From Magnetospirillum gryphiswaldense MSR-1 v2 (GTDB lineage: Bacteria > Pseudomonadota > Alphaproteobacteria > Rhodospirillales > Magnetospirillaceae), in NCBI RefSeq assembly GCF_000513295.1, contig NC_023065.1, positions 2,836,501 to 2,900,500 on the forward strand: DNA of 64,000 nucleotides. The letters are read 5' to 3'. The translations under genes were made by a program, and so were the position numbers. Under the pieces are notes generated by a model. It was given only the letters and a program-made list of their open reading frames with translations. It had not been told where the DNA came from and ran no database searches. Positions 6,488-25,173 of the stretch are shown piece after piece (position 1 is the stretch's first letter; each line of letters begins with the position of its first letter).

Positions 6488-6752
6488 TAGGGAACTCCAA
6501 AAGCAAGGCTATTTACGAAATTATATTACCCCGACAATCTTCATCCGCCAAGCACCACGTTGCAGCGCCACAAGACTTTCGGTACTTTCCTTGCGCATGA
6601 AGAGTGTATGGCGCAACTGTTGATACGAATTTTCACTCAGCTGCGACACCGAACCAACAATGCTTTAAAATCATTCCATTTTGCGCCCCACCCCCCCAGC
6701 CACTAGATTGCCTGCCATATGGGCCTCAACTTTTGATTCAAGGAGCTTTCGG

Positions 6753-7373
6753 ATGTCCGATGCCGTCAATCCCCTGAGCCTGGTGACCACCGCCGCCCCT
6801 GACTTCACCGCCCCGGCGGTGATGCCCGACAATTCCATCAACGAATCCTTCAACCTGAAGTCCTATCTGGCCGGTTCCTACGGCTTGGTGTTCTTCTATC
6901 CGCTGGATTTCACCTTCGTCTGCCCGTCGGAAATCCTGGCCCATGACCACCGCGTCAAGGCCCTGGCGGAAAAGAACTGCAAGGTCGTCGCCGTGTCGGT
7001 GGATTCGCACTTCACCCACCTGGCCTGGAAGAATACCGCCATCGACAAGGGCGGCCTGGGCAATGTCCAGTTCCCCATGGTCGCCGATTTGACCAAGTCC
7101 ATCGCCAAGTCCTACGGCGTGCTGATCAACGACGCCGTCGCCCTGCGCGGTTCGTTCCTGATCGACAAGGCCGGCAACGTCCAGGTCGCCCATGTCAACA
7201 ACCTGCCCCTGGGCCGCAATGTCGACGAAATGCTGCGTCTGGTCGACGCCCTGCAGTTCCACGAGGAACATGGCGAGGTCTGCCCCGCCGGTTGGCAGAA
7301 GGGCAAGGCCGGCATGACCGCCAGCCCGGATGGCGTCGCCAAGTACCTGGCCGCCCACGCCACCGAGCTGTAA
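6753..7373 (+). CDS. ahpC: Peroxiredoxin, typical 2-Cys (AhpC/Prx1)
   Basis: A 206-residue thiol peroxidase that reduces hydrogen peroxide and organic hydroperoxides. The peroxidatic cysteine is in FYPLDFTFVCPSE (Cys57) and the resolving cysteine in EVCPAGWQ (Cys177), the typical 2-Cys arrangement. An earlier in-frame start at 6681 is rejected because AGGAG at 6741-6745 sits just before the ATG at 6753 and homologues begin near here. An intrinsic terminator follows at 7398-7429. The trxB gene 2.2 kb downstream may supply the reducing route. Confidence 0.93.
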   Translation: MSDAVNPLSLVTTAAPDFTAPAVMPDNSINESFNLKSYLAGSYGLVFFYPLDFTFVCPSEILAHDHRVKALAEKNCKVVAVSVDSHFTHLAWKNTAIDKGGLGNVQFPMVADLTKSIAKSYGVLINDAVALRGSFLIDKAGNVQVAHVNNLPLGRNVDEMLRLVDALQFHEEHGEVCPAGWQKGKAGMTASPDGVAKYLAAHATEL

Positions 7374-11806: not shown

Positions 11807-11870
11807 CTCCTAGACGTGAAGCCTCCCTGTTTGACTTAGGCCCCGGTGCATAACCGGGGCCTCTCTTTTT
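11807..11870 (+). repeat. Attachment repeat, left copy (attL-like), 64 bp
   Basis: Identical over 64 bp to 25110-25173, in direct orientation. It runs from inside the last small hairpin of the sRNA to the end of its T-run. The two copies bound a segment containing an integrase, an excisionase-like protein and foreign-looking cargo. This fits site-specific integration that restores the 3' end of the target RNA gene. Confidence 0.88.
11838..11870 (+). terminator. Intrinsic terminator of the candidate sRNA
   Basis: A 10-bp stem AGGCCCCGGT / ACCGGGGCCT with a 5-nt loop, followed by CTCTTTTT. The same terminator is present in the right attachment copy (25141-25173). Confidence 0.9.
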
Positions 11871-11989: not shown

Positions 11990-12310
11990 ATTAACGCACA
12001 GCCAGCTCACCTCGGGTGACTTCTTCGGCCCGGTGGCCGCCGACCGCATCGTGATCAGTACGGACGCAAGGGACCGCAGCGCAACAACGTCGTCGTCGAA
12101 CGCCTGTGGCGCTGCGAGGAGGCGTACCTCAGGGCACAAGCGTGACCGAGACCCACGTCTCGCTCGACCACTATTTAGCCGCATTCGAGCTTTCCAGCAG
12201 GCCGATCAGACATATTTTGACAACCTGCCCCAGCCGGTGACAGCATGATCTTCGCTGCCGAACGGGGCGGCAGCCGACAGGCGATCCACTTGAATTCCCC
12301 AGGAACCTGT
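11990..12310 (+). pseudogene. IS3-family transposase relic (OrfB 3' end)
   Basis: Fragments in shifted frames match the C-terminal part of IS3-family OrfB integrases: SQLTSGDFFGPVAADRI (about 12000-12051), then GRKGPQRNNVVVERLWR, then after a stop and another shift DQTYFDNLPQPVTA up to the stop at 12248. Bases 12249-12310 resemble the non-coding tail of such elements. The catalytic core and left end are missing, so it is inactive. It shows the left end of the island has collected older insertions. Confidence 0.65.
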
Positions 12311-12364
12311 CCAAACAAACCAGGCAAGCCCTGCCGGCGCCGACCAAATCATAAAGAGGACACT

Positions 12365-12733
12365 ATGGTTATAAAAAATGCAGTTAGAGTATCATTGGCA
12401 TTATTAATAATAAGCGGATGCACAAGAATAGGTCTTCCAGAAGTATGGGGAAGTACACAAGATGTTAAAATAGATAAAATTATGCATTTTGAAGAAATGT
12501 ACAAAATACACTATCGGATCGAAAGTGATGCGGAGATACAGGTCAGAGCAATGCCAGAGTTAATACCATTTTCATGGAATCCCGTGGAGCAAAGAGTAAA
12601 AAATAAAAATGCAGCCATTAACTGGTGCTCTAAAAGCAAAAACTGTCACAATTATGATATCACTTCAGAAATGGATGGCGGCTCTGCCGATACAAACTTT
12701 ATATTTAAGCCCAGGAATAGGCAGATCAATTAG
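12365..12733 (+). CDS. AT-rich small lipoprotein of unknown function
   Basis: A 122-residue protein with a lipoprotein signal (hydrophobic stretch ending LIISG-Cys19). It should therefore be lipid-modified and exported. The rest has no family I recognise; two further cysteines lie in WCSKSKNCHNYD. AGAGGA precedes the ATG, so the in-frame extension to 12245, which runs through the IS3 relic, is rejected. Codon use (many ATA, AGA and TTA codons) is strikingly unlike the GC-rich neighbours and points to recent transfer from an AT-rich donor. Transcription signals are not evident. Confidence 0.6.
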   Translation: MVIKNAVRVSLALLIISGCTRIGLPEVWGSTQDVKIDKIMHFEEMYKIHYRIESDAEIQVRAMPELIPFSWNPVEQRVKNKNAAINWCSKSKNCHNYDITSEMDGGSADTNFIFKPRNRQIN

Positions 12734-13857: not shown

Positions 13858-14391
13858 ATGACGACCAACCGACGTATTCACGCCCTGGTGGCGGCCATTT
13901 TGGTGATCGTGAGTGGTCAGCCTTTGGCCGCCGAGCCGCTGCCGGCCGGCTTCCAATCCATGCCGGCGAAGACTCAGGCACCGCCGATCCCTTTCACCGA
14001 GCCGAATGGGAAGGCCATCAGCTTCTCCGACTGGCGCGGAAAGGTGGTCGTCCTGAACGTGTGGGCGACGTGGTGCGGGCCGTGCGTCCAGGAAATGCCG
14101 TCGCTCGACCGCTTGGCGGCGCAACTGCCGGCCGAGCGGTTCGCAGTACTCGCCGTCAGCCAGGATAAGGGCGGCAGCGCCGTCGCCAAGCCGTTCTTGG
14201 ATAAGCTTGGCATCAAGAATTTACGGGCGCTGGGCGATCCGGCTGGTCGCCTAAGCCGCGATCTCGGTGTGCGGGGGCTGCCGACAACCTTCATTCTCGA
14301 CCAGCAAGGCAACATCGTTAGCAGACTCGAAGGCCCAGCCGCGTGGGATTCCGTACAGGTTGTCTCCTATCTGCGGCGGCTTGCCCAATAG
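13858..14391 (+). CDS. TlpA/ResA-type periplasmic thioredoxin
   Basis: A 177-residue exported thiol-disulfide protein. Signal peptide at residues 1-24 (cleavage expected after LAA), then a thioredoxin fold with active site WATWCGPC and the cis-proline loop GLPTTFIL. The usual TlpA/ResA insert is present. Proteins of this class reduce or oxidise specific cysteine pairs outside the cytoplasm, classically in cytochrome c assembly. Here no cytochrome genes are nearby. Instead, 71 bp downstream lies a secreted protein with eight cysteines, the obvious candidate client (inference). No clear RBS precedes the ATG. Confidence 0.88.
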   Translation: MTTNRRIHALVAAILVIVSGQPLAAEPLPAGFQSMPAKTQAPPIPFTEPNGKAISFSDWRGKVVVLNVWATWCGPCVQEMPSLDRLAAQLPAERFAVLAVSQDKGGSAVAKPFLDKLGIKNLRALGDPAGRLSRDLGVRGLPTTFILDQQGNIVSRLEGPAAWDSVQVVSYLRRLAQ

Positions 14392-14462
14392 GCTATAAAG
14401 CTTGCTGACATCGAGAGCCGCTACTGGCATGATGCGCGCTATGGTTTTATGGAGGGGTCATC

Positions 14463-14819
14463 ATGTCGCTGCTGCGTCATTTTCTCTTTGCTGCCATCGC
14501 CCTGGTGATGGTGAGCATTTCCTATTCCCCGGCTAATGCCGCCGATCGCGATCTGTCGGCCATTTCCGCCTCACAGACGGTCGTTGAAGTGAATGGCCTG
14601 GGCTCTCCCGATGCCAAGTTCATGCTGTCCGACAAGGTCGCTGCCAAGGGCGCTGTTGCTCAGCTGGCCAAGCTGTCCGACTTCGGCGACCAGGGCAGCA
14701 GCCAGATCGTCGAACGCAGCGAGGGTTGTTCGACCGGTTGCTCAAACGGTTGTTCTGTCGGCTGCTCGTCGGGCTGTTCCTCGGGTTGCTCGTCTGGCTG
14801 TTCTATGGGCTGTCGATGA
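14463..14819 (+). CDS. Secreted protein with C-terminal GCSx octad (8 Cys, period 4)
   Basis: 118 residues. Signal peptide 1-27 (cleavage near SPANA-A), a 60-residue cysteine-free middle, then a tail of GCSx units with cysteines at 89, 93, 97, 101, 105, 109, 113 and 117, ending GCR. Every cysteine is preceded by Gly and the first seven are followed by Ser; only the fourth position varies (T, N, V, S, S, S, M). Codons differ between units (TGT/TGC, GGT/GGC, all kinds of Ser codon), so the protein repeat is conserved rather than freshly duplicated. GGAGGGG gives a strong ribosome site. The stop overlaps the next start (ATGA). No known family recognised. Possible roles: metal-binding peptide, modified peptide precursor, or disulfide/lipid-linked surface protein. 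Confidence 0.85.
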   Translation: MSLLRHFLFAAIALVMVSISYSPANAADRDLSAISASQTVVEVNGLGSPDAKFMLSDKVAAKGAVAQLAKLSDFGDQGSSQIVERSEGCSTGCSNGCSVGCSSGCSSGCSSGCSMGCR

Positions 14820-17464
14820 CAGCTGAGCCGATTATCCGGCTTCAAGGCGCGGCCCGATCAAACGATCGGGCCGTTTCCTTGTGGGCCGTGCTGTTAATTG
14901 CAGTAGCGGGCTTTGCGCTGGCCGAGGCCAATGACCTGGCAACCGTCGTTGGTGCCAGTCTGGTCGTGCTAGCGCCCACGCGCTTGCGCTTCCGCGTAGG
15001 TTTGCTGGCGCTCGCGCTTTCGACCTACTGGCTCGGGCCGGCGACGCTGTTGCTGGCAACACCTGCGGCATTGGTAGCCGCCGGGCGCGGATTACCGGCC
15101 ATATCTGCCGCTTTGGCGCTGGCTGGCATCGGCCTGACCGCCCAGCATTTTCAATCGGTTCCGTCTCTGGCAGATCTTCCCATTCACCTCGGCTCGCTGG
15201 TTGCGTTGGCGATTCCGAGTCTGGCCGTCGGCGTCGCTGCCGGCCGCTGGCTGGGCATTCGCGGGACGCTAAGCCTGATGGCTGGCACCGCCTTCCTGCT
15301 CGGTGGTTTCACCATGGCAGCGGGCGTGTGGTTTGGTGCCAGCACCATCACCGACCAGACCGTTCGCCTTCTACTTGCTTGTGTCCCGGCGGCATGGGCG
15401 GGATGGAACGCCAACGGCCGGGATAATGCGGCCGCGGACTGGTCGGCCTTGGCCGGTGCCGCTGTCGGCATGGTGGTGGCGCTGCTGTTGGCCGCCAACC
15501 CGATCTCCATGGTGGTGTTCGACGAATCGCACGGCAAGTGGGAAACCATTCGGGCCTCCTTCGGTCCCGACGACTTCGGCCGAGGCGTTAATTACACCTA
15601 CTCGCTGCTGTCCGGCCACGCCGAGCGCGTCGCTGGTAAGGTAGCAGCGTTCGACGACGAGGCGGCACCGCTTCCCGAGCGGGATGCGCTCTTCGTTATC
15701 AAGATGCCGACACAGCCGCTGTCCAAAGCATTTGTCGAGCGCCTTACGGAATGGGTGCGCGCTGGCGGGCGGCTACTGGTCGTTGCCGACCACACCGATC
15801 TCTACGACAGCACTCAGAACCTCACTCCGCTTCTTGCTCGCTTCGGCTACGAGGTGACGGCGTCGGCTGTCTATAACCCCATTGGCGGGCCGAATGTGCC
15901 CACGACAGCTCCAGGCATGGCGCTGCTGGGACGCATCGACGCCCACGGCCATCAACAGTCTTGGCAAACCGGCACGTCGTTCGGCGCGCTGCCCGCCAAT
16001 GCCCTGCGCCTGATGACCTTCGGCATGGGATTTGAAGAACCGGGCGATTACTCGCGACCCAACCGCTTCGGCCCGTTCTTGCCGCGCATCGCGCTGCGCT
16101 ATGGCGACCATAGCGCTGTCGCCGGCAGTGCCTTTGGCAAGGGCGCTGTCGCCGTGCTGCTCGACAGCACGCCGTGGTCGAACTTCTCTATGTTCAAAGC
16201 GCCCTATACCCACATGCTGCGCGGCGTCCTCCACGCTCTCGCGCATCCGTTGGCGCTAGCGGTCGCCGGCTGGGGCGGCATGGCGATGTTCGGCCTGGCG
16301 CTGCTGTGGCTGTGGCGGTCGCACCGGGTTCTATCCATCGCTAGTGGGCTCGCCATTGGCCTTAGCCTGGGTGCAGCGGCGCAGATTGGCTGGGCTTCAT
16401 TTGCCCAACCGGTTGAAGGCCGCGACTTCGGTTTGCGGGTCGCCGCCGGCTCGACGGCCAAGTTCGAATTCCTGAAACAGCTCGTTGCGCCGGGCGAGCG
16501 CAATTATTCACGCATCGTCTCGGCCATGGCGAAATACGATCTGATGCCGGCGGCGTCTGCACCGGGCGCCGAAATTCCGCGCCTGACCGATGCCCGGCGC
16601 TGGCTTCTGATCGATCCGGATGACCGCCAGCTTCCATCCCCATCCGATGTGCTGGCGCACTTGCAGCGCGGCGGCGATCTGACGGTGCTGTTCGCGCCAG
16701 AGGCGGTAATTCGTCCGCCCGTCCGCGCCTGGCTCAATGGCCTCTTGCTGATGCCGCAAAGGGCAACCGGACTGGCGATGGTCGAAGACGCCCGCCCCGG
16801 TGGCCTGATGGGACGCCGCGGTGCAGCCATCCTCCGGGACGTTCGCACGACGGTGGCTCCCTTGCCGCAATCGCTGTTGAAAGACCGAGAAGCGGACGCC
16901 CTGCTGCAATCCTTCACCGTTCGGCCCACCACGTTTCCCCGTATCAGCGGCCTGCTCAATATCAGCTTTTCGGCTGAGCAGTTTTCAGACGATGCCGTCG
17001 GCGAGGTGTGGGATGGCGTGCGGCCGGGTGTGCTGGGCCGCCACCGCGAGCGCCAACTGGCTGCCGCCCTCCTTGGCAACGAACTGCCGCCGCCGGCACC
17101 GGAGGAGGCCGTTCGACCAGACGCCAACCCTAAATTGGCCGCACACTTGCGCGGCTACCTCATGCTGGAAAACGGCAAGAAAGTCCTCGAAGGCGAGTTT
17201 GATGACAACGAGAGTGGCCCGCTTCGATTGGCCGAAGCGCCGCTCGCCTACCTGGCCGACCTGCGCAATCGCGCGGCCGCCTTCGTCGCGAGCTGCCCCG
17301 AACCGGGCACGCCCTGTCGAGACCGCCTGATTGGACCGGACATGACCGAGTGGGTCGTGTCTTGGGCGGCGGCGCGTGATGGACACCTGGCCGCGGTCGA
17401 ACTCGTCCATGAGCGCCGCTTCTCCGGCGCAGGGAGCACCTGGAATGTGGTCTTTGGCGAGTAA
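14816..17464 (+). CDS. Large polytopic membrane protein with DUF4350-like domains
   Basis: 882 residues. About seven membrane segments in the first 230 residues, then a soluble domain beginning DESHGKW (236-242) and containing WVRAGGRLLVVADH, which resembles the DUF4350/GATase-like domain of gliding- and ABC-associated proteins. Two more membrane segments follow (about 478-525), then a second soluble half (RRWLLIDPDDRQLPSPSD and onward). The start overlaps the Cys-repeat gene stop as ATGA, which implies translational coupling. An upstream TTG (14726) in the same frame is less likely. No ATPase motif. Function unknown; context suggests handling, export or sensing of the Cys-repeat protein. Confidence 0.78.
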   Translation: MTAEPIIRLQGAARSNDRAVSLWAVLLIAVAGFALAEANDLATVVGASLVVLAPTRLRFRVGLLALALSTYWLGPATLLLATPAALVAAGRGLPAISAALALAGIGLTAQHFQSVPSLADLPIHLGSLVALAIPSLAVGVAAGRWLGIRGTLSLMAGTAFLLGGFTMAAGVWFGASTITDQTVRLLLACVPAAWAGWNANGRDNAAADWSALAGAAVGMVVALLLAANPISMVVFDESHGKWETIRASFGPDDFGRGVNYTYSLLSGHAERVAGKVAAFDDEAAPLPERDALFVIKMPTQPLSKAFVERLTEWVRAGGRLLVVADHTDLYDSTQNLTPLLARFGYEVTASAVYNPIGGPNVPTTAPGMALLGRIDAHGHQQSWQTGTSFGALPANALRLMTFGMGFEEPGDYSRPNRFGPFLPRIALRYGDHSAVAGSAFGKGAVAVLLDSTPWSNFSMFKAPYTHMLRGVLHALAHPLALAVAGWGGMAMFGLALLWLWRSHRVLSIASGLAIGLSLGAAAQIGWASFAQPVEGRDFGLRVAAGSTAKFEFLKQLVAPGERNYSRIVSAMAKYDLMPAASAPGAEIPRLTDARRWLLIDPDDRQLPSPSDVLAHLQRGGDLTVLFAPEAVIRPPVRAWLNGLLLMPQRATGLAMVEDARPGGLMGRRGAAILRDVRTTVAPLPQSLLKDREADALLQSFTVRPTTFPRISGLLNISFSAEQFSDDAVGEVWDGVRPGVLGRHRERQLAAALLGNELPPPAPEEAVRPDANPKLAAHLRGYLMLENGKKVLEGEFDDNESGPLRLAEAPLAYLADLRNRAAAFVASCPEPGTPCRDRLIGPDMTEWVVSWAAARDGHLAAVELVHERRFSGAGSTWNVVFGE

Positions 17465-19355
17465 GCGCCTGGGCGCAGCCCTCGCGGCCGCGGCCGGCAT
17501 TGCCACCACGGCCATGCCGCTCACCTATCAGGCCGGGCCGGCGGTGCTTGCCCTGGCGCTCGCAGGCGGCTGGGCCATGGCCGGCAGCCGGACCGGCCGC
17601 CTTGCCTGGACGGTGCTCAGCGCCGTCCTTCTTGGATTGGTGTTGGCCGGACATGCCAATGCGACGCTTACTGCGGCCCTGGCAGCGGTGGCAGCATTGA
17701 CCCAGGCGGCTCCGCTCGTCCCCATCGCACTGGCCATCTTGCTGGCGCAGACGGCGGCTGCCAGCTCGGGGACCGCGCTCCTTGGCGGCGCGCTGCATCC
17801 AATCGGCCTGGAAGCGACGGCTCCCGCTTTGGTGTGCCTGCTGACGCTGGGACTGGTCTATCCCCGCCAGGCCGTGGTTATCCTGCTGGCCGCCATGGCA
17901 GTCGTCGGTGCGGCCGCTGGCGTGAGCCATTGGGCTTCTGTGCCTGAGGCTTCCATCGCTGCGGCCGGTGCGGTGGCCACCATCGTCGCCGTTACCTTGG
18001 CTCTGAGGCCATCGCCACCGCAGTCGTTGCGTAACGTCCTGGTGCTGACTGCCCTGGTCGGTGCGATGGTGACGTGGGCATGGACGCTCCCGCGAGCACA
18101 CGACCTCCTCTACGTCCTGCTGCCCGCCGCGCCGACCGCCTATGCGGCGAAGTTCTTCCAACACTACGGCGAGGCCCTGGGCTTTGCCGGCATCACCACG
18201 ACCGTGGTCGCGACCCCGGCTGATATTCCCGAACGTGCGATGGTTTTGCTCCCTTGGCTGACAGATCCCCTTCCGGGTGGCGATGAACAAGACTGGGAAA
18301 TTGGGCGCCTAGCCCGCGAACGCAGCTGGACAGTCGTGCTCGGCGGCGAACACACCAACATGGGTGGCGCAGCCAATCGAGTAGGCAGGATAACCGGGCG
18401 CGAGCTGCTGCGCCGCGACCTCTCGGTTCCGCCCCGAAATACCGACGACAACGGCCCGATGCGCGCGGCCGATCTGCGGGAATGGCGCCACGACGCCATT
18501 CTCAACCGCGGTGCCAGCGTTCCCGTTCTCTCGCTGACGAACCGCGTTCTGCTAGCCGGCGACGGCTGGTGGGCCGAGCCCGACATTGGGGAATGGCTGT
18601 GGGTGGGCGACTACCTATGGCGCCCAGGCGACCGAGCGGGGCGGCTGACCATGGCCGCCGCCTTCGATGATGGCCGTGCTCGCTGGGTGGTGGTGGGCGA
18701 CAACAGCCTGCTGGTCAATCGCCAGGTCATCGCGGACCCGCGCCCAGTCCTCCAATTACTGGAAGCCTCAACGCTCTGGCCGGCGTTCCTGCGCGACCTG
18801 GCCCTGCTCGCTGTTGCCGCGCTGGTACTCTGGCGGCGCCGGCCAGTGATCGTGCTGGTCTTGGCCGCCGCCCTGCCGGTGGCCAGTTACGCCTTCGCCG
18901 GCAAGCCAAGCGACGCTTGGCGCGGCGTCTATCGCGGCGAAAGCGGCTTCGACGAGCGGAACTTCAACGAGGCGCTGGCCCAGGAGCCCAAGCTGCTCGG
19001 CACCGATTGGCGCCTACTGCGCGTCCCGACTCTGCGAGGGCTGGTGGATGTGCCCATTGGGAAGACGGTGCTGTTCGGCTTGGTCGATGGCTCCGCGGAA
19101 ATCGGCGGCGTCCGCCTCAGTAACTGCCGGCGGCTCGGTAGCATGCCGACGGGCGACATCATGTTGATGGACGCCCAAGCCTGCCGGGTTGAAGGCCCTG
19201 CCGAGGTGCTGGTCGGCACCGCACAGTCTGCTGCAGCCATCCATGTGAAGACCCGTGACGACAGCTCTGTTCTAGTGGTGCTTGATGCCGCTTTCTTGTC
19301 TCAGAAGGCATCGGCTAAGAATCGGCAGTGGTTGGTCGGCAAAGCCGTTCGCTAA
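17445..19355 (+). CDS. Second large membrane protein, same architecture
   Basis: 636 residues starting at an ATG with GGGAG upstream, overlapping the previous gene by 20 bp. About eight membrane segments lie in the first 240 residues, then a soluble domain (about 250-470; VVLGGEHTNMGG, then ARWVVVGDNSLLVN), two more membrane segments (about 470-515) and a C-terminal soluble domain with two cysteines. The layout mirrors the preceding protein (membrane block, soluble, membrane pair, soluble), so the two may be distant paralogues forming a heteromeric complex (inference). No catalytic motif and no named family recognised. Confidence 0.75.
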   Translation: MWSLASKRLGAALAAAAGIATTAMPLTYQAGPAVLALALAGGWAMAGSRTGRLAWTVLSAVLLGLVLAGHANATLTAALAAVAALTQAAPLVPIALAILLAQTAAASSGTALLGGALHPIGLEATAPALVCLLTLGLVYPRQAVVILLAAMAVVGAAAGVSHWASVPEASIAAAGAVATIVAVTLALRPSPPQSLRNVLVLTALVGAMVTWAWTLPRAHDLLYVLLPAAPTAYAAKFFQHYGEALGFAGITTTVVATPADIPERAMVLLPWLTDPLPGGDEQDWEIGRLARERSWTVVLGGEHTNMGGAANRVGRITGRELLRRDLSVPPRNTDDNGPMRAADLREWRHDAILNRGASVPVLSLTNRVLLAGDGWWAEPDIGEWLWVGDYLWRPGDRAGRLTMAAAFDDGRARWVVVGDNSLLVNRQVIADPRPVLQLLEASTLWPAFLRDLALLAVAALVLWRRRPVIVLVLAAALPVASYAFAGKPSDAWRGVYRGESGFDERNFNEALAQEPKLLGTDWRLLRVPTLRGLVDVPIGKTVLFGLVDGSAEIGGVRLSNCRRLGSMPTGDIMLMDAQACRVEGPAEVLVGTAQSAAAIHVKTRDDSSVLVVLDAAFLSQKASAKNRQWLVGKAVR

Positions 19356-19560: not shown

Positions 19561-20165
19561 ATGATGACTACTCAGCTTGCAACACTGGAAGTCGTCTCTT
19601 CCGCCACTGCAGTTCGACACCAAGCGCTGATCGACGATGTTGCTGCTGCCGAGGCTTGCCCCACCAGCATCCGGCCCACCCTCCCTAATGTCCGTAATCT
19701 CATGAACGGTCTGCACATGCTCGCTTCTTTGAAGAGCGAAGTGGTGGCAACTGCTTTCTTTGATCCGCAATACAGAGGTGTCTTGGACAAGCTCGGCTAC
19801 GGCAATGAGGGGGCACGTCAGCAAGGACGAGCGGCACTGGCTCAGATGGATGTGGATACAATTTCGCGCTTCATCGAGCAGATTAGTAGAGTTCTCCGGC
19901 CGAGCGGACACCTCTTCCTGTGGATCGATAAATTTCATTTATGTGAAGGGGTGCAGCCTTGGCTGGCGGGCACTGACCTAGAAATCGTCGATCTTATCAC
20001 TTGGAACAAAGGTAAGTTCGGGATGGGGTAACCCAATGACGTTTCATGATCTGCCTCCAAAAGCTCACGAAATGCTAGTACAAACCCTGCTGGCAATCTA
20101 CAGCGCAGATGGGCGCGAACGTTGTGGGTTCCGCTTCTGAATACCTATTGGCTGCCTCACGCAAA
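19561..20165 (+). pseudogene. Truncated phage-type DNA methyltransferase
   Basis: The first 156 codons (19561-20031) are intact and carry a good RBS. FFDPQYRG fits the catalytic DPPY-type motif of N6/N4 aminomethyltransferases, followed by FLWIDKF and IVDLITWNKGKFGMG, as in phage adenine methylases. A stop interrupts right after this. Downstream in another frame the usual continuation SEYLLAASRK is still readable (about 20127-20165). The gene is therefore frameshifted or partly deleted and probably inactive. Confidence 0.65.
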
Positions 20166-20670: not shown

Positions 20671-23199
20671 TCAGATGCGATTGAGGCACCAGCGTGCGCT
20701 TCCTGCCACTGCCTTGGCCTGGGTGAGGCGAAACCCACCACGATAACGGTCCTTCTGGGAACTCAACCACTTTCCGAACCTGACGGAACTGACGGCCCCG
20801 GAGGTGCCGCCTACGTTAAGAAGAGCTTCCCGGAATTCGGGGTCTTTAAACTCGTAGCCGTTGACCGCAGGGCGCGGTTCGATTGCGCGCTTAATGACCT
20901 CAGCTACACCCACGGTGTTGTCCGCGAAGTGCTCCCACCATTGCTCGAAGACAGCCGTGGCGGCAAGCGTTTCCGGGTCTTCCGCACGGTTGGTTTCCTG
21001 GGTGGTAACCACGTCGGGCAGGCCCAACCACACCAACGCGTCGCGGACCCGTTCCGACCAGTCTTTGAAGGACTGCAACGGAACAATGGCTGACCTCCAA
21101 CCAGACAACGCGAAGGCCCGAAGAATCGTCAAGCCGGCAACGACGAACTCGACACGATGCTTCTGAACTTCTTCATAAGGATCGAAATTGTAGGGGCGGA
21201 TTTCCGGGCGTTCCGTTCGGGGATCCAACCTGGAAATAATCGCCCTACGGTTGGTGTCGCCGTCGATCTTCAGGTTATTGCCCGTGAACACCAGCGTCAT
21301 GGCCGTAGGCCGCTCGGGAGCTTCAGATTTCCCCAAAACCCTGGTGGCGGTCTCTTGTGCAGTCAGGACCGCGTTGAGGAAATCACCGCCGATGGGGGCC
21401 GTGCAATTGTCGAACAACGTGAAACTCGAACCGGCCAGCAACCTGGACGACAGTCGCTTTTCCAGCTCTTCGGCATCCTTACCTTGACCAAGGACCGGAG
21501 CCCCACGGCCAAAAGCAACCCATGCCGCCAGATCGGCAAGGAAGGTTTTTCCTGTTCCGGGGCAAGGCGCAGAAAACCCGAACAACGGTGCTGTCCGCAG
21601 CGTCGGACGAATGAGCGCCGTCAAAACCAGCGCGACCCACACCGCCCGATCAACAGGACTGACGAAATCGGGTTCAAAAGTCTGGATCAGCCCTACTAGG
21701 CGGGCCAATGCTATTTCTGCCTCCTCCTTGGTCGGGTTCTCCGGGATCGGGGTGAAGTCGGCATTGGGCGCGTACAACAACCCGGTGCCTGCGTCATAAC
21801 CGGGCGTGGACAGGATCCTTCCATCCGCCAGGATCGTCGGGGCTTGAAGGAAACCGCTGATAGGGCGAAATTTCCAAGAGCCAGTCCGAGCCACAAGCAT
21901 TTCTACTGCGTCTTTAGGGCAGTCACAGGGCACGAAACCTCCCCCGCCAGATTTCCGGCTGTCCCATTTTTCAAAGTCAGCAACCCGCATCGCCCGTTCG
22001 CGAAGATGAACCGCGTTTGCGACGACAAGTTGGGCATCCTTGGTGGGAACGCCATGCCGTCCGGGAACTTCGTTCTCCACCAGCCGAAGCAGCCTGTTGT
22101 TCTGCTGGAAAAGATCAGGGTCGCCTTCCATCAATGCGGCTTCGATAAGATCAACCGTGCGAACCAATTCCCCGCCCCTGACTTGAACCAAAGGGCGCTC
22201 GCGGGTATCGATTTCGACCACCTGTGTGGCGATCTCCTCGGGGAGATCGTCGTTCCATCCCGGAGGAAGGCCTCCACGCTGTTCCGCGTCTTGTTTGACG
22301 AACCGGAGAACCTTCTCCGTCATGTCCGCTTCGGTGAACTCGTCACCAGGGCGTTGTTCGACGTTGTGAAGAACCCAGCCGCAAGCTGCGCGAAGCGCTT
22401 CCACAAGCGTCATTTGTCCAACGCTGACGACATGGGCGAAATGACCGGCAACGTTGGTGGCTTGATCGTCGCGCCCGCCGCAACCCGCAACGGCGGTAAG
22501 GTCCACATGGGCGCTGTTGCCGCTCTTGTTCAGCTTGACGCCCGCAGCTTCCAGCGCGTCCCGCAGGTTCTTTTCGAAGTCCATCGGCAGCGTGGGCAGC
22601 AGCCCAATCACGTCCAGCAATTCGCAATTGGCGGTGTAAGGCAAGCCGGTATCGGGGTGGATCGACGGCGGCAACACGACTTGGGTGCCTGCGGAAAGCA
22701 GTTCGCAGACGGTCTTGCCGTCCTTGTCCTTCACTCGGAAGGTCTTCTCACCGCTGAAGCGGAAGACTGCGACGTAGCCTTTCTTGCCGACGCGCTTCCA
22801 CTGACTTTGAACAGGAATTGCGCTTTCAATGGCCGCGATAACGACGGCGTCGGTGGTGTCGATGTCCAAGGCCACGACCCCGGAAGCGCCCCCCAACGGC
22901 AAACCGATGTTTCCGTTACTGTGGGCGGTCAACCAAGTGCTTTGCTCGTCTTCCCTCGGCATCCGCGACCGGAATAGCGACCAATTCGCCACGGCGGGCC
23001 GTTTCTCACGCGGCACCAACGGGATGACGGGAACCCCAGCGGTCCAATACTTCTGGGCCAGCGAACCAAAAATGCCCGCAACGGCTTGAACCTGTGCGAC
23101 AGTTTGGCTAAAATCCTGGGATTCCTGAAAGCTTTGGTTTTGGTCCTCGTCGGCGTTGGTCGCGCCGACGGGGCCGCGTTCGTTGCGATCAAGCGACAT
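20671..23199 (-). CDS. Prim-pol/ATPase replication protein of the island
   Basis: 842 residues. The N-terminal bifunctional primase-polymerase domain (about 50-220) has GNIGLPLG, the catalytic DID (Asp112, Asp114) and VVLPPSIHP (His181). A P-loop PCPGTGKT (545-552) marks an ATPase/helicase-like second half. Such fusions initiate replication of phages, plasmids and integrative elements. GGGGGAG lies before the ATG, and the start overlaps the end of the excisionase-like gene by 11 bp, so the two are probably co-translated. This suggests the island replicates after excision. Confidence 0.88.
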   Translation of the reverse strand: MSLDRNERGPVGATNADEDQNQSFQESQDFSQTVAQVQAVAGIFGSLAQKYWTAGVPVIPLVPREKRPAVANWSLFRSRMPREDEQSTWLTAHSNGNIGLPLGGASGVVALDIDTTDAVVIAAIESAIPVQSQWKRVGKKGYVAVFRFSGEKTFRVKDKDGKTVCELLSAGTQVVLPPSIHPDTGLPYTANCELLDVIGLLPTLPMDFEKNLRDALEAAGVKLNKSGNSAHVDLTAVAGCGGRDDQATNVAGHFAHVVSVGQMTLVEALRAACGWVLHNVEQRPGDEFTEADMTEKVLRFVKQDAEQRGGLPPGWNDDLPEEIATQVVEIDTRERPLVQVRGGELVRTVDLIEAALMEGDPDLFQQNNRLLRLVENEVPGRHGVPTKDAQLVVANAVHLRERAMRVADFEKWDSRKSGGGGFVPCDCPKDAVEMLVARTGSWKFRPISGFLQAPTILADGRILSTPGYDAGTGLLYAPNADFTPIPENPTKEEAEIALARLVGLIQTFEPDFVSPVDRAVWVALVLTALIRPTLRTAPLFGFSAPCPGTGKTFLADLAAWVAFGRGAPVLGQGKDAEELEKRLSSRLLAGSSFTLFDNCTAPIGGDFLNAVLTAQETATRVLGKSEAPERPTAMTLVFTGNNLKIDGDTNRRAIISRLDPRTERPEIRPYNFDPYEEVQKHRVEFVVAGLTILRAFALSGWRSAIVPLQSFKDWSERVRDALVWLGLPDVVTTQETNRAEDPETLAATAVFEQWWEHFADNTVGVAEVIKRAIEPRPAVNGYEFKDPEFREALLNVGGTSGAVSSVRFGKWLSSQKDRYRGGFRLTQAKAVAGSARWCLNRI

Positions 23200-23688: not shown

Positions 23689-24933
23689 TCAAGCACCTCG
23701 AAGCACCACCACATTGTGCTCCCGATCAACGCCGACCGTCTTCAACACATATCGGGTCCAAGTTTGGAGCGCCGCCTTCTTTTCCTCCAAATAGGAGTGT
23801 TTGTTGTAGTGCTTGGCACCAACGCCCGATGTCGCGTGGTTCATCACCCGGTCGCGAAGTTCCTGACCGATGCCCAGAGAAGCCAGGCCCGTTTCGACGG
23901 TGCGGCGAATATCATGGAACTCCCACGGTTCCCATTCCGCCGCTTTTGCCTCACGGTCCAAAATTTCTTTCAGGCGCTTCATGCCGTTGTAGGCAACCGT
24001 CCCCTTGGCGGTGAACACCCACCGATTGCCAAGGCGGGGCAGCTCTTCAAGAATAGCCTTCACCTCGGGAGCCAGGGGGACGACGTGTTCACGCTTGCCC
24101 TTGTTGCGGAGCATTGGAAGTGTCCAGACCGCCCTTTCAAGATCAACTTCGGACCATTCCATTTCGCGGACCTCATCACGGCGTTGCCCCGTCAAGATCA
24201 TCACCTTGATGAGGGATCGGCTGGGGTCGGTCAGTCCTTCGGCAGCCGTCCAAATCGCCTTCAACTCGTCGCCAGACAGCACCCGGTCCCGGCTGTCGGA
24301 CCTGAACCGCTTCTTGATGGGCTGGGCGACATTGACCTCGATCCATTCGCGTTCCACCGACCAATTCAACAGGTGTTTGAGGCTGGTCAGAACCCGGTCG
24401 CACTGATCCGTTAGCCCCTTTTTGTGTTGAAGATCATCCATCAATTCGACCACATCGGCACGCCGCAACTCGACCAACAGCTTCTTGCCGATCTTTGGAA
24501 CGACGTGATTTCGCAACATGGCCTCGGTCTGCTTCCATTGTCGCTGGTTCGGCCGGCAGTAACCGGCCACGTAATCCTCAACCGTCGCGGCCACCGTCCG
24601 TGACCGTGCTAGGTCTTCGGCAGCCTTGGCTATGGCGGCAGCCGCAGCGGCAGCCTCTTCGGCCATGAGGTCACGACCGACAGCGGCAGCGGCTGTTAAG
24701 GCCTTCGCACGAGCCCTGGCATCCTTGAGGCTCACCTCGGGATAGGTTCCGTAAGTGGCTTTCCGCTGCGCCTGCCCCTTCGGTCGATATTGGATCGACC
24801 AAGACTTCACCCCGTTGGGCGTGACCCTGATCATCAAGCCGGGGCAAGAGAGGTCGGTCTTGCTGTATCGGGTTGCGGTGGACTTCAAGCCCTTTAGGTA
24901 TCGGTCGGTGAATTCGATGCGGTCTGACGTCAC
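23689..24933 (-). CDS. int: Tyrosine recombinase/integrase, P4 type
   Basis: 414 residues. N-terminal arm-DNA-binding domain (DUF4102 type, about 1-85: LKSTATRYSKTDLSCPGLMI), an Ala-rich helix, a core-binding domain (about 115-200), and the catalytic domain with Arg251 in LTGQRRDEV, HDIRR (His340, Arg343), His366 and nucleophile Tyr376 in AKHYNKHSY. It catalyses integration and, with the excisionase, excision at the 64-bp repeats. It lies 176 bp from the right repeat, as expected for this class. Confidence 0.94.
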   Translation of the reverse strand: MTSDRIEFTDRYLKGLKSTATRYSKTDLSCPGLMIRVTPNGVKSWSIQYRPKGQAQRKATYGTYPEVSLKDARARAKALTAAAAVGRDLMAEEAAAAAAAIAKAAEDLARSRTVAATVEDYVAGYCRPNQRQWKQTEAMLRNHVVPKIGKKLLVELRRADVVELMDDLQHKKGLTDQCDRVLTSLKHLLNWSVEREWIEVNVAQPIKKRFRSDSRDRVLSGDELKAIWTAAEGLTDPSRSLIKVMILTGQRRDEVREMEWSEVDLERAVWTLPMLRNKGKREHVVPLAPEVKAILEELPRLGNRWVFTAKGTVAYNGMKRLKEILDREAKAAEWEPWEFHDIRRTVETGLASLGIGQELRDRVMNHATSGVGAKHYNKHSYLEEKKAALQTWTRYVLKTVGVDREHNVVVLRGA

Positions 24934-25109: not shown

Positions 25110-25173
25110 CTCCTAGACGTGAAGCCTCCCTGTTTGACTTAGGCCCCGGTGCATAACCGGGGCCTCTCTTTTT
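25110..25173 (+). repeat. Attachment repeat, right copy (attR-like), 64 bp
   Basis: Exact direct copy of 11807-11870. Here the upstream half of the sRNA is absent, so this copy is only the 3' fragment: part of the last hairpin plus the terminator. Confidence 0.88.

Follow-up and report, generated by a model that had tools for sequence, protein, structure and literature searches.

An island-borne operon of Magnetospirillum gryphiswaldense combines a cysteine-repeat peptide with two membrane proteins, one of which belongs to the GIFT/DUF4350 family

Organisation of the operon

The stretch of DNA analysed here (the window; 64,000 nucleotides of contig NC_023065.1 of Magnetospirillum gryphiswaldense MSR-1 v2, positions 2,836,501 to 2,900,500) contains four same-strand open reading frames (ORFs) that form an operon and encode, in this order, a TlpA-like thioredoxin, a short peptide with a regular array of cysteines (the Cys-repeat peptide) and two large membrane proteins, which we call mem1 and mem2 (Table 1). 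An earlier note on this DNA had described four genes on one strand, separated by 71, -4 and -20 nt, with a strong ribosome binding site before the Cys-repeat gene, and both the ORFs and the sequence agree with this; the GGAGGGG of that site stands 5 nt ahead of the ATG. The peptide gene and mem1 overlap through ATGA (TTGA in the Methylophilus counterpart described below). mem2 could also be read from an earlier GTG, at 17376; all gene starts given here are ORF calls.

The TlpA-like protein scores 75 bits against Redoxin (Pfam) and combines this Redoxin/AhpC-TSA match with a WCxxC motif, WCGPC. By hydropathy it begins with a hydrophobic stretch, as does the peptide, and on this basis the thioredoxin is predicted to be extracytoplasmic; export of both was predicted from hydropathy and inspection. 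In mem1 and mem2 alike, a bundle of transmembrane (TM) stretches is followed by a soluble domain, two TM stretches and another soluble domain, so that hydropathy supports the layout that the earlier note had assigned to them. No ATPase came up among the operon proteins or the other proteins of the element that were scanned (Pfam and other collections; small ORFs were not all scanned, here and wherever the element is said to lack a family), again as the note had it.

Table 1. Features of the operon and of the island that carries it (window coordinates)
Feature	Position	Strand	Basis
TlpA-like thioredoxin, 177 aa, WATWCGPC active site, N-terminal hydrophobic stretch	13858..14391	+	ORF, Redoxin match, hydropathy
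GGAGGGG ribosome binding site of peptide gene	14451..14457	+	sequence
Cys-repeat peptide, exported-looking, 118 aa; invariant RS, then terminal (GCSx)7-GCR	14463..14819	+	ORF, alignment
Eight-cysteine array, spacing 4	14727..14816	+	sequence
mem1 (A-type), 882 aa; DUF4350/GIFT domain at residues 279-457; second soluble domain past residue 530	14816..17464	+	
mem2, 636 aa, TM-soluble-TM-soluble	17445..19355	+	no Pfam match; hydropathy
Left 64-bp direct repeat, attachment-site duplication; terminator-like hairpin and T-run inside	11807..11870	.	perfect repeat pair
Right 64-bp direct repeat	25110..25173	.	perfect repeat pair
Prim-pol domain protein of the element	20671..23199	-	Pfam scan
Tyrosine integrase with arm-binding domain	23689..24933	-	scan of element proteins

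All spacings between the eight cysteines of the peptide equal 4, and a run of eight at this spacing did not arise once when the whole protein was shuffled 200,000 times, nor in 200,000 shuffles of its 31-residue tail. Since no two of the seven GCS units are identical in DNA, the pattern is old and held by selection at the protein level rather than freshly duplicated; among the relatives are some whose units hardly differ in DNA. When six (GCSx)n peptides are aligned, one F, the RS just ahead of the array and the array itself are invariant, while the leader region varies.

Recurrence of the gene set

The search of the host's class covered 385 genomes. One of them, G238 from another family, keeps this gene order with a thioredoxin of 53% identity, a peptide of 50% and a mem1 of 36% that is truncated to 265 aa; no mem2 was seen at the locus. 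The mem1 copy (L012 9446-10243) stops past the DESHGRWETTQASFGP motif and the thioredoxin and peptide frames are open; the locus is a decaying operon. The complete set lies on a contig of a Methylophilus metagenome-assembled genome (MAG; L245/L260), with identities of 42% for the thioredoxin, 44% for the peptide, 48% for mem1 and 46% for mem2, and a TraG_N conjugation gene adjoins it. The four genes thus recur together and in order, which had been left as a check on the original description. On a contig of a Candidatus Brocadiaceae MAG (L188/L259), the peptide is followed by membrane proteins of 589 and 762 aa, the latter mem1-like, and in two genomes of the Verrucomicrobia phylum draw, found via the membrane protein, (GCSx)n peptides of 105 and 141 aa stand directly ahead of two membrane genes. 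The first membrane proteins of the Brocadiaceae and of the two Verrucomicrobia-draw loci are related to one another and were equated with mem2 by place and layout only. Several loci in this study are MAG contigs, possibly misbinned, and the phylum labels of the draws are those of the seed contigs.

The Methylophilus and Brocadiaceae loci were first found by scanning genome contigs for the cysteine pattern (at least 120 stretches). Among the matches listed, 21 ORFs fit a profile of the six peptides at E 1e-4, with L188 and L245 at 140 and 127 bits and the next at 62, and the remaining ORFs look repeat-only; a mem1 match falls inside the fetched stretch for L245, that of L188 lying outside. Two further genomes, G437 and G442, gave weak matches to the peptide profile. 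Profile searches of viral contigs found no relative, and pattern scans of them no convincing member (in the first scan, among the matches listed): 1 of 2283 and 0 of 1513 ORFs of the fetched stretches fit the peptide profile at E 1e-4, the sole match being a repeat-only ORF of 45 aa (36 bits).

Association of cysteine repeats with the membrane pair

A regular-Cys ORF, defined as one of at least 40 codons in which six or more cysteine spacings in succession differ by no more than 2 from a common value between 4 and 14, is present in 14 of the 24 pair loci and in none of the 60 control stretches (1.1 Mb) of the same genomes (Fisher 6e-10, the loci being partly dependent by descent). Only pair loci found through the membrane proteins alone were counted; the window (given), the Methylophilus and Brocadiaceae loci (found by the cysteine pattern) and five domain-only places were left out. 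The positive loci comprise the one of G238, both of G511 and G512, 7 of 14 from Planctomycetota and those of 4 of 7 genomes of the Verrucomicrobia draw, while the controls comprise 40 stretches of 20 kb from Planctomycetota and Brocadiia contigs and 20 stretches (295 kb) from Verrucomicrobia-draw genomes. In 12 of the 14 the Cys ORF is upstream and on the same strand, at times with one gene between; it is downstream in L333 and on the opposite strand in L326. We consider the association of Cys-repeat ORFs with the membrane pair well supported. A looser cysteine criterion was dropped, as it gave no ORF in the seven Planctomycetota loci failing the strict test and 22 in controls.

The period of the cysteines in relatives is about 4, 5-7 or 11-14, with up to 137 cysteines, and the repeats vary accordingly (GCSx, TCNGxx, TKCPxxx, TxDPNDPRC, and CSV about every 12 residues). 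The cysteine stays constant as period and neighbours change, so the chemistry of the single cysteines probably matters.

Five of the ten pair loci lacking a Cys ORF have a repeat protein of another kind upstream: RHS proteins (Pfam RHS) of 2075-2160 aa in L325, L328, L331 and L332, and a tetratricopeptide repeat (TPR) protein in L322. Neither a Cys ORF nor an RHS or TPR cargo was seen in L415 and L418, and the contigs of L327, L334 and L417, also without a Cys ORF, are short. The RHS-repeat giants, which in these Planctomycetota loci stand directly ahead of tandem GIFT membrane proteins, appear to be a second class of cargo of the same apparatus. In L420 (3997-9876), a single ORF of 1959 aa upstream of the pair has RHS repeats together with a stretch of regular cysteines (period about 4), so that both cargo classes are joined in one protein. 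CarboxypepD_reg proteins lie upstream in L323, L324, L330, L333 and L335, all of which also have a Cys ORF. A segment SP[LI]xxxxxLxxxxxxF/W, found by eye and with a simple pattern, is present near the N-terminus of the Cys proteins of L272 and L273 and of the TPR proteins of L322 and L326, and also, without the S, in the second half of the L323 Cys ORF; it is possibly a recognition signal, in which case one apparatus would serve both TPR and Cys proteins.

Some of the Cys proteins deserve a short description. Those of L272 (13398-17744; 1448 aa, 119 Cys) and L273 (12304-17274; 1656 aa, 137 Cys) have about one cysteine per 11-residue TxDPNDPRC repeat, and that of L272 matches no Pfam family. 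The L323 ORF (10123-12567; 814 codons, 88 Cys in TCNGxx hexads) apparently consists of two units, each ending in a hydrophobic stretch and arginines, which resembles a C-terminal sorting signal. L333 (15796-17677) and L330 (10142-12541) encode CSV-repeat proteins with a cysteine about every 12 residues, as a tandem pair in L333 and as an immunoglobulin-like (Ig-like) fusion in L330.

In the Methylophilus class draw, 18 of 369 genomes (G509 not counted) have DUF4350 matches that are domain-only, with no regular-Cys ORF in 18 small loci; the weak matches of G517, G520 and G571 and the second places of G511 and G512 are not pairs, with none in five small loci; and the Myxococcales-draw relatives have one borderline Cys ORF, on the other strand, in 11 fetched loci and none in 25 small loci.

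The membrane proteins and their wider family

mem1 passes the gathering cut-off of DUF4350 (PF14258) with 36.5 against 30.4 bits, its Methylophilus ortholog stays under it (23.8 bits), and mem2 matches neither DUF4350 nor any other Pfam family. Several mem1 relatives lie above the cut-offs of ABC_transp_aux and IFT52_GIFT. A profile of 15 family sequences matches the solved GIFT domain of IFT52 (5fmr) at 3.5e-9 over the first soluble domain and, weakly, at 1e-4 over the second, and the best PDB match of an AlphaFold2 model of mem1 is also IFT52 (5fms; TMt 0.60, E 9e-5, Foldseek). Nine Foldseek matches of this model are below E 0.001, GH42 galactosidases among them; a likeness of DUF4350 to the galactosidase trimerisation domain has been noted (PMC5898192). 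These matches place mem1 among the tandem GIFT/DUF4350 membrane proteins. Six polar residues, W242, Y260, D290, H326, D450 and T452, are invariant in mem1-type proteins, which suggests that they may mark a binding or active site. The GIFT domain is named for GldG and IFT52, is present in the oligosaccharyltransferase (OST) subunit Wbp1 and has been proposed to bind sugars (PMC7226087).

Searches with the mem1 profile gave a match in 6 of 75 Brocadiia-class genomes. In G511 and G512, tandem GIFT/DUF4350 membrane proteins stand behind very large proteins that look exported and contain 137 and 119 cysteines, roughly one per 11 residues. A profile of membrane proteins of this type finds 14 of 343 Planctomycetota genomes; one is the Brocadiaceae MAG and the other 13 give 14 loci. 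The family profile matches 7 of 318 genomes of the Verrucomicrobia draw; a set of 16 genomes gave no match. With A- and B-type profiles of the Planctomycetota proteins (E-values scaled to 1000 sequences, filters off; the B-type L329 was kept out of the A group, and L331 and L327 out of the B group), mem1 scores 127 bits against A. Gene order is cargo-B-A in readable Planctomycetota pairs and cargo-A-B in the window and Methylophilus.

In the Myxococcales phylum draw, 29 of 311 genomes have shorter single proteins, many of them lipoprotein-looking; in L423-L433, for example, they are DUF4350/GIFT proteins some 570 aa long, several of which resemble lipoproteins. Their neighbours in L425, L427 and L433 include what we take, by the look of the sequences, to be a cyclic-nucleotide-binding gene and a gene for an exported protease.

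Comparison with known systems

The closest described relative is the predicted secretion or membrane-remodelling complex of arCOG01314/DUF4350 proteins (PMC5898192, 2015), which shares DUF4350, membrane anchoring and exported neighbours (Ig-like, S-layer-like) with our locus; DUF4350 proteins are there predicted to be parts of secretion complexes with vWA, AAA+, Ig-like and S-layer-like proteins. However, arCOG01314 proteins have a signal peptide and a single C-terminal TM segment and mostly lie beside vWA and AAA+ (COG0714) genes, whereas mem1 and mem2 have several TM stretches, and the proteins scanned here, from the operon and the rest of the element, include neither of these two types. What sets the present system apart is two polytopic twin proteins and a Cys-repeat cargo. 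With GldG, IFT52 and Wbp1, mem1 has the GIFT fold in common (profile, Foldseek), but the operon has no ATP-binding cassette (ABC) partner and no intraflagellar transport (IFT) or OST context; mem1 does not match GldG (TIGR03521, cut-off 389.85) at E 1, and its relative in L272 reaches 40 bits.

Radical S-adenosylmethionine (SAM) targets of TIGR04117 likewise have a C-terminal cysteine at every fourth residue, but the peptide scores 20.3 bits against a cut-off of 50 and the other five (GCSx)n peptides have no match at E 0.01. Radical SAM maturation was considered and rejected: a motif check (no profile was used) found no CxxxCxxC in the longest non-overlapping ORFs of at least 200 aa in the window and 23 loci, ORFs with at least 20 cysteines being passed over in the loci. 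The YTV wall proteins of Planctomycetales (PMC8567305) are also Cys-rich envelope proteins and partly of the same phylum, yet the repeats described here differ and occur in three phyla (by record titles), and the Cys proteins of the window, L272, L324 (241 aa), L329, L330, L416 and L420 do not match the YTV family (Pfam). The window thioredoxin has the fold, the WCxxC and the N-terminal anchor-like stretch of TlpA/ResA, but it scores 126 bits where the NCBIfam TlpA equivalog stands at 230, and the gene after it encodes a Cys-repeat peptide. None of the four proteins matches a family of the PADLOC anti-phage models at E 0.01. A literature search (titles and abstract starts; subscription papers largely outside) found no description of Cys-repeat proteins together with GIFT/DUF4350 membrane pairs. 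In sum, the parts have known relatives and the whole system fits none of the families tested. The earlier note knew no named system of this make-up, which holds for the set; mem1 taken singly has DUF4350/GIFT relatives.

Proposed mechanism and alternatives

Because of the recurrence, the cysteine link and the GIFT relationship, a dedicated twin-GIFT apparatus is the most economical reading, and we give it a probability of about 0.45. mem1 and mem2 would together make up an inner-membrane complex of twin-GIFT type, dedicated to the export, assembly or anchoring of a single exported protein of repetitive sequence. The cargo here would be the peptide, exported by Sec, whose C-terminal (GCSx)7GCR array may be cross-linked, by disulfides or another cysteine modification, into an extracytoplasmic structure, and in the proteobacterial version the TlpA-like thioredoxin would keep or reshuffle the cysteines. 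To generalise, and here we are more tentative, twin-GIFT proteins could be a new export or assembly machine that joins or modifies one cysteine per repeat and makes Cys-linked surface structures in at least three phyla (by record titles), the window holding its smallest, mobile form with a thioredoxin of its own. A fold of gliding, ciliary transport and glycosylation complexes would then be linked to proteins with up to 137 regular cysteines. The question of what becomes of one cysteine per repeat outside the cytoplasm, and whether the twin GIFT proteins act on it, is testable, and the mobile version of 5.5 kb is small enough for rebuilding in a laboratory strain.

Several results weigh against the twin-GIFT apparatus. 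The structure models are poor, with a mean predicted local distance difference test (pLDDT) score of 56 for mem1, where just the region of the first soluble domain is well modelled (blocks up to 94), and of 36 for mem2, whose model is unusable. mem2 reaches only 10 bits against the B-type profile (its Methylophilus ortholog 18), and it has no detectable relationship to the proteins equated with it, which come first after the peptide at the Brocadiaceae and Verrucomicrobia-draw loci; profile comparisons of mem1 with mem2, and of mem2 with the 589-aa protein of L259, gave no significant match. The earlier note had named, as a sign that it was wrong, membrane homologues regularly without a Cys-repeat neighbour, and this is partly the case: no regular-Cys ORF was found in 10 of the 24 pair loci, 3 of them on short contigs and four with RHS proteins instead. 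Lastly, of its expectation that both a Cys-repeat protein and a TlpA protein would recur beside the membrane pair, the former part stands and the latter does not extend beyond Proteobacteria, TlpA being present in the three proteobacterial loci and found by tblastn, among 20 loci searched, in proteobacterial ones only (none in L259, L272, L273 and L322-L336) and in none of nine Verrucomicrobia-draw loci, although some contigs end near the peptide. TlpA is thus better viewed as a probable accessory, suited to the proteobacterial envelope, than as a universal part.

Other explanations were weighed against the same data. The operon could make a product like the ribosomally synthesised and post-translationally modified peptides (RiPPs), the peptide being a precursor whose leader ends in RS and whose core holds the cysteines, and the membrane pair helping to modify each cysteine (e.g., with S-linked groups) to give a small product or a display peptide. 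We think this rather unlikely: a variable leader before a constant RS and GCS array, the weak TIGR04117 match, and invariant polar residues in a protein type with proposed sugar-binding domains are what such a system might have, but the longest ORFs of the window and 23 loci contain no radical-SAM-like motif, relatives with more than 100 cysteines are too large for a RiPP and the peptide starts with a Sec-like hydrophobic stretch. It is also unlikely, and to a greater degree, that the array is an exported metal-thiolate protein binding Cu(I), Zn or similar at the envelope, held or loaded by the membrane pair and reduced by TlpA, since no metal transporter, sensor or metallochaperone is found among the element proteins scanned and the RHS and TPR partners of sister loci are ill-suited to a metal role, even though eight regular cysteines, a TlpA-like reductase and carriage on an integrative element would agree with it.

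Patchy presence (mem1 in 1 of 55 host-family genomes), the mobile island and TraG_N beside the Methylophilus copy could point to a cargo for antagonism or immunity, with the peptide as a secreted inhibitor and the membrane proteins as its partners in export or immunity. This seems improbable to us given the absence of any match to PADLOC or to a Pfam or NCBIfam toxin or immunity family, and given giant, structural-looking repeat proteins among the relatives. As for a chance neighbourhood of unrelated island genes, pair homologues do occur with other upstream genes, but order and strand are the same in three genomes, with each gene 42-53% identical to its window counterpart (the truncated mem1 36%), and the Cys-ORF counts are 14 of 24 against 0 of 60; the recurrence refutes this reading, which we find hardly credible.

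The island and its surroundings

The operon takes up 5.5 kb of an island of 13.3 kb whose two ends are marked by perfect direct repeats of 64 bp, 13,303 bp apart, and with its tyrosine integrase and prim-pol protein this confirms the integrative element proposed earlier. The other 54 genomes of the host family yielded no mem1 homologue, and a plasmid collection gave no match to mem1, mem2 or the Methylophilus orthologs of either. Besides the genes of Table 1, the element has an ORF of 162 aa (12245-12733) that matches nothing in Pfam or NCBIfam at E 1 and, between mem2 and the prim-pol gene, one of 156 aa (19561-20031) with weak methyltransferase matches. Outside the island, the chromosomal flank includes a YchF gene and one that we assume, from its sequence, to encode a thioredoxin reductase, and a peroxiredoxin gene with a 1-Cys C-terminal domain lies on the chromosome side upstream of the island (window 6681-7373).

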